DNA from: Alphaproteobacteria bacterium
GTDB taxonomy: Bacteria; Pseudomonadota; Alphaproteobacteria; Rs-D84
Length of the DNA stretch: 64,000 nt
Reading direction: 5' to 3'
Assembly: GCA_009784235.1 (NCBI GenBank)
Contig: WRCC01000001.1
Location: forward strand, 1-64,000
The stretch's first letter is position 1. Every line of letters begins with the position of its first letter. Below the pieces are notes generated by a model, which saw nothing but the letters and a program-made list of their open reading frames with translations, had not been told where the DNA came from and searched no databases. A program made the position numbers and the translations under genes. Positions 6,882-64,000 of the stretch are shown here, piece after piece.

Positions 6882-7862
6882 TTATATCATGTTTTTGGCG
6901 TTTTCCAAGTCTGCGGCGCCGGGAATATTTCCTATGATTATGTCTGCGCTGAATTGGTGTTTGAACCAAGTCCGTTGACGCTTTGCATACTGATTGGTTT
7001 TGATTGTCCAGTTTGCAATCATTGTTGGTTCATCTATTTCGCCGCGGACAAATTGCATTATTTCCGCGCCACCGATTGCGCGTGACGGGTCGGTCATTTT
7101 TCGTGCTTCATCAATTGCGCCGGCGGCAATCATTCCGGGAATTCGTGCGGGAATTCGTGCGGCCAAAATTTCACGCGGCGGGTTAATTAAAAATTTAATT
7201 GCGTCCGGCACGATGGCACCCGTGCGCGGTTCGGATTGCCATTCGGTAATTGGTCGACCGGTTTCGAATAAAATTTCCAATGCGCGTGCGGCGCGCTGTG
7301 GGTCCGATGGCGCACCGGGGCCGAGTAGTTCGCGCACAGCGTCAATATCATCACGAACCATGTCGCGTGCGCGTTTGCGGTTAACATCTGATACGGCCGG
7401 CATCGCCGAAATTCCATTCAAAATTGCGTTAATATAGAATCCTGTTCCGCCGACGAATATAACAGGCGTTCCGGAACGTATTGCCGTATTATACACATCG
7501 CGCGCCATATCCAAATATTCACCAACTGATATTTGTTGGTTCAGTGGCAACACGGAAAACAGGTGATATGGCACGTTGTTGATTTCGCAGAAGGACTTGT
7601 GCCCTCCTTTTTGAGGGGGGCTGTCGCCTGAGGCGACTGGGGGGAGCTCCCCCTCGTCACGCTTTGCGTGACACTCCCCCTCAATGAGGGGGAGACAAGA
7701 ATTATCTGCAAATGGACTTGCCGATATTATTTCAATTCCGCGGTACATTTGCACGCTGTCGCAATTAATTATTACGCCACCGATTTGTTTTGCCAACGCA
7801 TGCGCAAATCCGGATTTTCCAGATGCAGTCGGCCCAGCGATAATATAAGTTTTTGATAACAT
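6882..7862 (-). CDS. miaA: tRNA dimethylallyltransferase MiaA with an inserted repeat peptide
   Basis: MiaA transfers an isopentenyl group to A37 of tRNAs reading UNN codons. The 326-residue protein has the P-loop GPTASGKS (residues 9-16), the DSVQMYRG segment and GGTGFYINAIL. Between the second strand and the VPYHLF segment (usually VPHHL) lies an extra stretch of about 31 residues (56-87) encoded by a palindromic repeat (7601-7695); it is absent from normal MiaA and remains in frame. ATG at 7862 is preferred over the in-frame TTG at 7889: a promoter (TTGCAG-17-TATAAT) ends exactly six bases before this ATG, so the mRNA should be leaderless. Confidence 0.93.
   Translation of the reverse strand: MLSKTYIIAGPTASGKSGFAHALAKQIGGVIINCDSVQMYRGIEIISASPFADNSCLPLIEGECHAKRDEGELPPVASGDSPPQKGGHKSFCEINNVPYHLFSVLPLNQQISVGEYLDMARDVYNTAIRSGTPVIFVGGTGFYINAILNGISAMPAVSDVNRKRARDMVRDDIDAVRELLGPGAPSDPQRAARALEILFETGRPITEWQSEPRTGAIVPDAIKFLINPPREILAARIPARIPGMIAAGAIDEARKMTDPSRAIGGAEIMQFVRGEIDEPTMIANWTIKTNQYAKRQRTWFKHQFSADIIIGNIPGAADLENAKNMI
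7601..7695. repeat. Palindromic repeat, family C, in frame inside miaA
   Basis: A chain of small hairpins: CCCTC..GAGGG, GTCGCC TGA GGCGAC, GTCACG CTTT GCGTGAC and CTCCCCCTC AAT GAGGGGGAG. A homologous element occurs inside polA at 51378-51471, in the opposite orientation relative to the host gene. It encodes about 31 extra residues. Confidence 0.85.
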
Positions 7863-7868
7863 GGGTGA

Positions 7869-7897
7869 ATTATAGGATACGCAAATCAATCCTGCAA
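7869..7897 (-). promoter_or_regulatory. Leaderless promoter of miaA
   Basis: On the minus strand: TTGCAG (7892-7897), 17-base spacer, TATAAT (7869-7874), six bases, then ATG at 7862. It lies at the 3' end of xerC, so miaA can be transcribed independently. Confidence 0.8.
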
Positions 7898-8830
7898 CTT
7901 TTTCGCCCGCGGGTGCGCGGCGGCGTAAGTGCTTGCAATCATCGACATATCAACCTTGGTATATAATTGCGTTGTTGATAATGACGAATGACCCAGCAAT
8001 TCTTGTAGTGTGCGCAAATCCGCACCGTCGGAAAGTAGTGCGGTGGCAAAAGTATGCCGCAAAGCATGCGGTGTTACATATTCGGGTAATTGCAGCGCAT
8101 TGCGCAGGTTTTCAATGACTTTTTGCGCCATACGCGGCGTCATCGGCAATCCGCGGACGGAACGGAATAAATGTAGGGGCGCGTACTCGCACCCTGGGGC
8201 GCAAATATGCGCCCCTACGAATGGTCGAATTTTTACATATTTCTCTATCGCGTCCCAAACGGCGGGCAACACGGGAACAATGCGTTCTTTACCACCTTTG
8301 CCGGTAATGCGCAGGACTTCGGGTCGGCCGGCAATGTCTTTGTCGGTCAGTGCAAGTGCTTCGCTGATACGCAATCCGCATCCGAAAATCAGCAACACCA
8401 GCGCATTATCCCGCGCGGCAATCCATGGTTCGGCCGCCACGTCGCCTGCTGCGTCTGTCATATTTTCGACGTCCAGGGTTTCGATTGCCTTGGATAATTT
8501 TTTTGGAATTTTTGGTGAAGAAATCAATGCAATTGCTTCGTTTTTAATACCATGCCTTTTGTCCGCGAACCGTAAAAAACTGCGCACCGATGACAAAGCC
8601 CGCGCGGTTGCACGATGTGACAAGTCGCGCCGACCGCGGTCGGCCAACCACGCGCGAAATCCGATTGTATCAATGCGTGTCAAATCCGCCGGCAACAATT
8701 CTGCACCGCGCCAAGTTTCATAAAATTGAATAAAATCACGGATGTCTGTTTCGTATGCATCGGCCGTATGCACAGAATACTTTTTAGTATTCAGCAGGTA
8801 ATCCAAAAATTCAGCGACCAGCGTGTCCAT
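7886..8830 (-). CDS. xerC: Tyrosine recombinase XerC
   Basis: A 314-residue XerC/D recombinase that resolves chromosome dimers at dif. The N-terminal SAM-like domain is followed by catalytic residues: Arg in GCGLRISEAL (about 151), Lys in TGKGGKER (about 175), HALRHTFA (about 254), His in LGHSSLSTTQLY and the Tyr nucleophile there (about 287). The STTQLYT wording is closer to XerC than XerD. Residues 204-219 (VGAHICAPGCEYAPLH) are encoded by a palindromic repeat (8172-8219) also found between genes, an in-frame insertion. It overlaps the LOG stop by one base (TAATG) and precedes miaA by 23 bases. Confidence 0.92.
   Translation of the reverse strand: MDTLVAEFLDYLLNTKKYSVHTADAYETDIRDFIQFYETWRGAELLPADLTRIDTIGFRAWLADRGRRDLSHRATARALSSVRSFLRFADKRHGIKNEAIALISSPKIPKKLSKAIETLDVENMTDAAGDVAAEPWIAARDNALVLLIFGCGLRISEALALTDKDIAGRPEVLRITGKGGKERIVPVLPAVWDAIEKYVKIRPFVGAHICAPGCEYAPLHLFRSVRGLPMTPRMAQKVIENLRNALQLPEYVTPHALRHTFATALLSDGADLRTLQELLGHSSLSTTQLYTKVDMSMIASTYAAAHPRAKKLQD
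8172..8219. repeat. Palindromic GTAGGGGCG repeat (family A) in frame inside xerC
   Basis: Starts TGTAGGGGCGCGTA and ends GCGCCCCTACG. It is nearly identical, in reverse complement, to the intergenic copy at 46467-46513. At 48 bases it adds 16 codons without breaking the frame. Confidence 0.9.
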
Positions 8831-9387
8831 TATTTGAAGTCTTTCAAAAATTCCTTTATAACATCTTCGGGTTTGTTGAATACTTTCATATCATAATCAT
8901 TAATATCGGCAATAAATCCGTTTTCCAACATGTGCGTAATCGTGCGGCCGAAAATATCCCAATAACCGTCGGTGTTCAAGAAATACAATGGCTTGCGTGT
9001 TTCGCCGATTTGTTGGCGCACCAAGATGTCGGTCAATTCGTCCAGTGTCCCTGTGCCGCCTGGCAAAATACAAAAAGCGTCGGATAATTCATACATTCGT
9101 TGCCGCCGGTCAGAAATATTTTTTGCGATTTCGGTTTCTATGTGTTCATGCATCGGTTCTTGTTTGGCCAAAACATGCCCGGTTGTTACGCCAATTGCAT
9201 CGCCGCCATTATTAATGACTGCATTTGCAACGGTTCCCATCAGTCCAACATCGCCGCCGCCGAATACCAGACGGATGCCATTTTCTGCCATCAGTTCGCC
9301 GATGCGCGCCGCATCACGCGTGAAATGGGGGTTTGTTCCGAATTGGTGACCGCAATACACGGCCAGTGAAAGTTTTTTATTTGCCAT
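8830..9387 (-). CDS. LOG-family nucleotide phosphoribohydrolase (TIGR00730)
   Basis: A 185-residue Rossmann-like protein of the lysine decarboxylase-like/LOG family. The diagnostic PGGxGTxxE motif is present as LPGGTGTLDEL (residues 108-118), with an upstream GGGDVGLMG nucleotide-binding loop and the conserved Arg in SDRRQRMYELSD. Characterised members cleave cytokinin riboside monophosphates or other nucleoside monophosphates to the base plus ribose 5-phosphate; the bacterial substrate here is unknown. ATG at 9387 follows AAAGGAAAA. It heads the minus-strand run LOG-xerC-miaA. Confidence 0.9.
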   Translation of the reverse strand: MANKKLSLAVYCGHQFGTNPHFTRDAARIGELMAENGIRLVFGGGDVGLMGTVANAVINNGGDAIGVTTGHVLAKQEPMHEHIETEIAKNISDRRQRMYELSDAFCILPGGTGTLDELTDILVRQQIGETRKPLYFLNTDGYWDIFGRTITHMLENGFIADINDYDMKVFNKPEDVIKEFLKDFK

Positions 9388-63679: not shown

Positions 63680-63771
63680 AAAATTTCCTTTCTTTCTATT
63701 ACGGACGGTAGCATATTGCGAAAATGCCAATCAAGCCCAAAATTTCATTAAAAACGCAACTCGATTTATGA

Positions 63772-63777
63772 TATAAT
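63772..63777 (+). promoter_or_regulatory. Leaderless -10 box
   Basis: TATAAT followed by GCCCGT and ATG at 63784. Confidence 0.7.
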
Positions 63778-63783
63778 GCCCGT

Positions 63784-64000
63784 ATGTTAAAAAGATATTT
63801 TCCAGTTTTACTAGGATTCTATGCCTTTGGCGCGCATGCATCGACAAACCCACCATCGGGCGTTTGGGATAATGTGAATAATACAGGCGCGGAAATTACA
63901 TCCGGATTCTATAATTATACATCGTCTGGCGATATGATTGTTAACGGCGCATTTATTGTGGATTCTTCGGCCGACGCATCAAATCCAACGACTGCGACCG
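63784..64000 (+). CDS. Exported surface protein, 5' part (truncated by window)
   Basis: Seventy-two codons are visible before the window ends. MLKRYFPVLLGFYAFGAHA is a signal peptide; the mature start STNPPSGVWDNVNNTGAEITSG is Asn/Thr/Gly-rich like passenger regions of autotransporters and other repetitive surface proteins. No Shine-Dalgarno; a leaderless -10 box precedes the ATG. The rest of the gene is outside the window. Confidence 0.65.
   Translation, partial: MLKRYFPVLLGFYAFGAHASTNPPSGVWDNVNNTGAEITSGFYNYTSSGDMIVNGAFIVDSSADASNPTTAT

Follow-up and report, generated by a model that had tools for sequence, protein, structure and literature searches.

When the upstream regions of the genes in this genome were analyzed, a -10 hexamer was found at a short distance before the start codon, most often six bases, in a large class of genes. 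This hexamer-to-ATG geometry is confirmed and lies far beyond chance. Very probably, the hexamers belong to housekeeping-sigma promoters that are set so that +1 falls approximately on the A of the ATG, with about one fifth of the genes leaderless and about two thirds led by a Shine-Dalgarno (SD) sequence. Leader lengths given here are those predicted from promoter geometry.

The source genome comprises 874,588 bp in three contigs and is 98 % complete. The window, which is the whole 64-kb stretch of DNA described here, represents the start of contig 1. For the gene-level analysis, the window and 20 sampled stretches were combined (463 kb and 376 genes, of the ~875-kb genome). Gene starts were assigned over the 463 kb with our own coding-potential caller and have no curated annotation behind them. 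A two-signal mixture model was then fitted, consisting of an SD class and a -10 class with free spacing in each and with the -10 class anchored on a sigma70 -10 prior; permuted -10 matrices and dinucleotide-shuffled upstream regions were used as controls. A first, free-running mixture model was discarded as it drifted to a T-rich coding signal.

When the model was applied to the 376 genes, approximately 21 % were assigned to the leaderless class and approximately 65 % to the SD class. The -10 class showed spacings to the ATG of 6 (42 %), 7 (19 %), 9 (16 %) and 10 bases (6 %), and the log-likelihood of the model was 223, compared with 166-197 for the permuted -10 matrices. There were 54 confident leaderless calls (52 starting with ATG and two with GTG) versus a mean of 0.8 in the shuffled upstream regions, and 41 calls at spacing 6-7 versus 0.1. 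The model was also refitted in another species of the same genus (G003; spacing 6 36 %, 7 20 %) and in a genome of another genus with 54 % GC (G019; 40 % and 13 %, respectively). The additional group at spacings 9-10, together with the dip at 8, resembled a 3-nt periodicity. This group was not reproduced as such in the G003 or G019 refits, and no claim is therefore made on it.

The genome-wide excess at the six-base spacing, proposed as a check in the preliminary description, is present. TATAAT-N6-ATG occurs 40 times in the whole genome, versus 7 occurrences of the reversed pattern and 22 at a 12-base spacing, and six genomes of the family contain 248 such sites versus 120 for N12 (p ~1e-11). 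With coding-only starts, TATAAT was located at spacing 6 in seven genes and at spacing 7 in two, where internal ATGs gave expectations of 0.3 and 0.1. In the sample, 12 of the 24 TATAAT-N6-ATG sites are in frame with a coding-only gene start no more than 90 nt away, compared with one of 53 sites at spacings 12-15. The suggestion of a two-class initiation strategy is thus well supported by the spacing-6 excess, the mixture model and the shuffles.

All nine window genes for which this architecture had been described carry a sigma70-type -10 hexamer that ends exactly six bases before the ATG, and every hexamer, every spacing and all four -35 elements listed for them were reproduced. On the minus strand, miaA (6882-7862; tRNA dimethylallyltransferase, TIGR00174 above cut-off; leaderless class, posterior 0.98) has TATAAT at 7869-7874 before the ATG at 7862, and TTGCAG at 7892-7897 with a spacer of 17. 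The tsaC gene (minus strand) has TACATT at 43075-43080 before the ATG at 43068, and TTGATT at 43097-43102 with a spacer of 16; its product is a TsaC-family protein with profile matches below the curated cut-offs. In the case of ligA (plus strand, 34308-36302; NAD-dependent DNA ligase, NF005932; leaderless class), TATGCT at 34296-34301 precedes the ATG at 34308, and TTGAAA is found at 34273-34278 with a spacer of 17. The hexamer of recO (plus strand) is TATAGT at 47888-47893, with the ATG at 47900. For polA (DNA polymerase I, minus strand), TATAAT at 52351-52356 lies before the ATG at 52344, and TTGATA at 52374-52379 has a spacer of 17. The remaining four genes, all on the plus strand, combine TATAAT with an extended -10: gene 32341 (TGA; 32329-32334, ATG 32341), the class A penicillin-binding protein gene at 36384-38171 (TGC; 36372-36377, ATG 36384), pth (TGT; 52389-52394, ATG 52401) and gene 63784 (TGA; 63772-63777, ATG 63784), which continues past the window end. 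The 321-aa product of gene 32341, of unknown family, had no Pfam or NCBIfam match.

Four further genes had been credited with leaders of only 1-3 bases, and three of these cases are good. The VirB11-like ATPase gene has TAAAAT at 18929-18934 (minus strand), seven bases before the ATG at 18921 (posterior 0.84). Gene 2247 has TATAAT at 2232-2237 (plus strand; posterior 0.94) and gene 45752 has TATCAT at 45762-45767 (minus strand; posterior 0.88), each nine bases before the ATG (at 2247 and 45752, respectively) with a predicted leader of ~3 nt. The fourth case is weak, as gene 4598 shows only a candidate TAGTAT at 4584-4589 (plus strand), eight bases before the ATG at 4598, with a posterior of only 0.53.

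A -35 element, which was never used in the selection, was observed in the leaderless class with TT ~70 % conserved, a following G and a spacer of 16-17 bp, and this signal recurred in three separately fitted genomes. As this unselected element is found at the expected distance, the hexamers are regarded as true promoters. An extended -10 TG before the -10 was also enriched in the leaderless class of the source genome (G000) and was likewise no selection criterion. In the SD class, the consensus is AGGAGA and lies 4-7 bases upstream of the start. The leaderless class is without an SD before the start codon, which is present in the other class; to some extent, the two motifs exclude each other because they would compete for the same bases. 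Genes with SD motifs had been described as having normal leaders, in agreement with which none of them has a TATAAT nearer than 19 bases to the start.

It is conceivable, though improbable, that the ATG-proximal promoters exist while the main mRNAs are leadered through upstream promoters or read-through and leaderless translation is minor. In Zymomonas mobilis, about half of the leaderless units have additional leadered promoters (PMC7566282). Some genes here may likewise have additional leadered promoters. However, others are without room for them. The divergent polA and pth genes share a 56-bp intergenic space (52345-52400) that holds both of their promoters, so that neither gene has room for a leader. 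Divergent gaps are also shorter for leaderless genes than for SD genes (median 116 bp versus 175 bp). Promoters that start transcription at the ATG, presumably without others upstream, are the preferred reading.

Conservation in related genomes bears on the start codons themselves. In recN, obg and ligA, the -10 and the ATG are in register in relatives while the intervening bases differ. For miaA, six other genomes (G001, G004, G005, G006, G007 and G010) have the -10 at a spacing of 6-7 bases and G014 has it at nine bases; for ligA, the -10 is at spacing 6 in six other genomes (G003, G006, G009, G010, G011 and G012). When one-to-one orthologues of G000 and G003 with aligned starts were compared, five, among them recN, obg and ligA, were leaderless in both, three in G000 only, three in G003 only and 53 in neither (p = 0.0004). 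A very unlikely reading is that the hexamers drive leadered mRNAs and that the ATG at six bases is a mis-called start, with the true start further downstream. The start is not certain for every gene, and in leaderless species starts have often been re-annotated (PMC12340547). Nevertheless, the sharp peak at 6-7 is not expected if the ATG were irrelevant, the N termini of LigA, RecN and Obg match those of their orthologues residue for residue from that same ATG, and the miaA starts of the relatives likewise lie 6-7 bases from a -10. That common TANNNT motifs fall at six bases by chance in 64 kb of AT-rich sequence is least probable of all. In its favour, the pooled TANNNT count at spacing 6 over all ATGs is barely above background, but this pooled count is uninformative. 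At the class level, chance is refuted by the controls (shuffled regions, permuted -10 matrices, internal ATGs and other spacings), by the independent -35 and by orthologue conservation, although single weak cases such as gene 4598 may be chance.

Across a wider range of genomes, the ratio of TATAAT-N6-ATG to the reversed pattern was 3.4-25 in the sampled genera of the family, except for G014 (genus g11) with 1.7. The mean across 142 other Alphaproteobacteria was 1.7, and such class-wide ratios are only indicative because the reversed-pattern control is imperfect and has no spacing control. Within the order, G014 and several AT-rich families give a weak or diluted signal. Some of the miaA orthologues from outside the family have AAGGA-type sites instead. 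Conservation of the polA promoter was sought in other gut alphaproteobacteria, and polA was not leaderless in those examined.

In the mechanism that we propose, the -10 of an ordinary housekeeping-sigma promoter would place the transcription start at, or about one base from, the A of the ATG, and the resulting mRNA of roughly one gene in five would be leaderless. Ribosomes would bind the 5'-terminal AUG of such an mRNA directly, by analogy with other systems (PMC4117421, PMC12340547), and about two thirds of the genes would start via an SD leader. The anti-SD CCTCC is intact in 16S genes of the family, as read from relatives (a 16S gene is absent from the source assembly), and infC (IF3) and S1-domain proteins are encoded in the source genome. 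Both initiation routes are thus plausible. Loss of initiation factors as a cause of the leaderless class was rejected, as infC and the S1-domain proteins are present.

Leaderless initiation is well known from Actinobacteria, Deinococcus and Caulobacter, and leaderless genes whose ORF directly follows a -10 have been established in both Actinobacteria and Deinococcus-Thermus (PMC3160421, PMC12340547). The class described here is therefore a strong new instance in an uncultured, reduced-genome lineage and not a new mechanism. Zheng et al. (2011) observed a 'TA-led' leaderless class in only two of 117 alphaproteobacterial genomes, with a mean of 6.3 % of genes (PMC3160421). Their survey shares with our results a TG that precedes the Pribnow box in genomes of low GC content and translation (J) genes that are less often leaderless; the difference is the ~21 % of genes here, in a reduced-genome lineage. 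Within the same bacterial class, transcription starting at the ATG was mapped for 375 leaderless mRNAs in Caulobacter crescentus (9.6 % of CDSs; PMC4117421), 171 in Sinorhizobium meliloti (as cited in PMC4117421) and 119 leaderless TSS-gene pairs in Zymomonas mobilis (PMC7566282). Those maps are experimental and come from larger cultured genomes, whereas ours is read from sequence. Caulobacter also has few SD sites (24.6 %), in contrast to the mostly SD-led source genome. The promoters of Deinococcus-Thermus with a '-10 region adjacent to ORF' are similar in having a -10 a few bp before the ORF, leaderless mRNA and spacing requirements (PMC12340547). However, the Deinococcus motif is a degenerate TANNNT that works without a -35, and here it is a near-consensus TATAAT, often with a -35 or an extended -10. 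GeneMarkS-2 leaderless-transcription genomes likewise combine SD and leaderless models in one genome, and compared with them, what is new here is confined to lineage and gene content (PMC9581028). The present case extends abundant leaderless expression to uncultured, reduced-genome gut Alphaproteobacteria, and gene finders that assume an SD may misplace about one fifth of the starts in the source genome.

For the function scan, 50 leaderless genes were compared with 40 randomly drawn promoter-proximal SD genes. Some family names derive from matches below the NCBIfam curated cut-offs, e.g. TsaC and TadA. Genes for DNA repair or for tRNA/rRNA modification and recycling accounted for 15 of the 50 leaderless genes and one of the 40 SD genes (p = 0.0004). 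As the functional groups were sorted by hand after the window genes were known, the counts outside the window (9/39 versus 1/33, p = 0.014) are the fairer test. The leaderless repair genes encode LigA, PolA, RecO, RecN, UvrB, PriA and RadC, and the modification and recycling genes encode MiaA, TsaC, TsaB, TadA, DusB, QueA, Pth and RsmG. Other leaderless genes encode Obg, FtsY, FtsK, RpoH, an ECF sigma factor, LpxA, a class A PBP and AmiC-, DipM-, VirB11- and VirD4-like proteins. Among the 40 SD genes, the single repair gene was that of Ung and none was for RNA modification. Ribosomal proteins and aminoacyl-tRNA synthetases showed the opposite distribution (0/50 leaderless versus 7/40 SD, p = 0.0025).

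The preliminary description had proposed that core repair and translation genes favour the leaderless class. This applies to repair and to tRNA/rRNA modification, but not to ribosomal proteins and synthetases, which are SD-led, and an earlier survey agrees that leaderless genes are under-represented in the translation category (PMC3160421). Codon adaptation was slightly lower in leaderless than in SD-led first genes (p = 0.003; a small effect with a six-gene reference set). From the functional counts and this difference, we consider protein abundance (low for leaderless genes, high for SD-led ones) a better rule than a leaderless start for translation genes. The leaderless architecture would then sit on genes for low-abundance proteins of repair, RNA modification and envelope assembly, and SD leaders on those for abundant proteins such as ribosomal proteins, tRNA synthetases and glycolytic enzymes.

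A more speculative extension, which we put forward tentatively and regard as rather doubtful, is that selection maintains the initiation mode of each gene across the genera of the family, keeping repair and RNA-modification genes with low-abundance products leaderless and translation genes with high expression SD-led. If so, any shift in the balance between 70S-type and 30S-type initiation would move repair and modification genes together relative to growth genes. Since the architecture of miaA and ligA can be traced across genera, the lineage offers a comparative test of per-gene selection on initiation mode, and, given the functional split, an initiation-mode regulon becomes a testable idea.

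With regard to the origin of the DNA, the window opens inside the 3' end of a 23S gene. Gut lineages with genomes <1 Mb are known from the order Rs-D84 (PMC12306168), and the source genome probably belongs to an order such as this. The DNA polymerase I encoded in the window is closest to homologues from uncultured gut Alphaproteobacteria (termite, ruminant and other animal-gut MAGs).

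A palindromic element of about 107 bp with a strong predicted fold (-64 kcal/mol) was observed in frame within protein-coding genes, where it encodes a peptide of the type SPSLRGSV..ADEGELPP...KEGGT. The source genome carries approximately 13 distinct copies, and nine of ten sampled copies lie within called genes. Two are found in the window, inside miaA (7593-7699) and polA (51372-51477). In the stretches sampled from the same genome beyond the window (L-numbers), two copies (L054:4994-5095 and L054:6351-6450) share a single gene (L054:4220-7822), another lies in a GatB-like gene (L067:3797-3880) and further copies are located at L052:16709-16806 and L061:14437-14521. 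The element is absent from most relatives, including G003 and G004, which belong to the same genus; two other family genomes, G006 and G012, also carry it. In habit it resembles the Rickettsia palindromic elements.

In queA (L054:16751-18286), some 170 residues that include a DUF559-like domain are inserted in frame, and this insertion is bracketed by two copies of the palindromic element in opposite orientation (L054:17517-17571, + strand; L054:17991-18041, - strand). The insertion could be the parent form of a homing-type element, one that carries the endonuclease, and the in-frame palindromes would then be its short derivatives.

When the spacing between the -10 hexamer and the ATG was counted in the source genome, 34, 14, 2, 11 and 3 genes were found at 6, 7, 8, 9 and 10 bases, respectively, so that a dip at 8 is followed by a second group at 9-10. 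This second group as such was not seen in G003 or in G019 (another genus), and it is possibly due to chance.

The divergent genes polA and pth have ATGs just 56 bp apart (window 52345-52400), and both predicted leaderless promoters are interleaved in this gap. It is because of this arrangement that the two promoters may compete or be co-regulated. Upstream of window 17229, 36384, 40801 and 46531, a GC-rich intergenic sequence of the type GCGAATACGCGCCCCTAC recurs directly ahead of the promoter or ribosome-binding site.

The contig starts within the 3' end of the 23S rRNA, followed by the 5S (window 1-625), and for this reason no 16S gene was found in the GCA_009784235.1 assembly. An open frame of 2000 aa occupies window 23365-29367 (- strand). 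Beyond the window, a single open frame (L066:2128-4047) combines a domain of the rRNA maturation RNase YbeY with one of the apolipoprotein N-acyltransferase Lnt, an apparent gene fusion.
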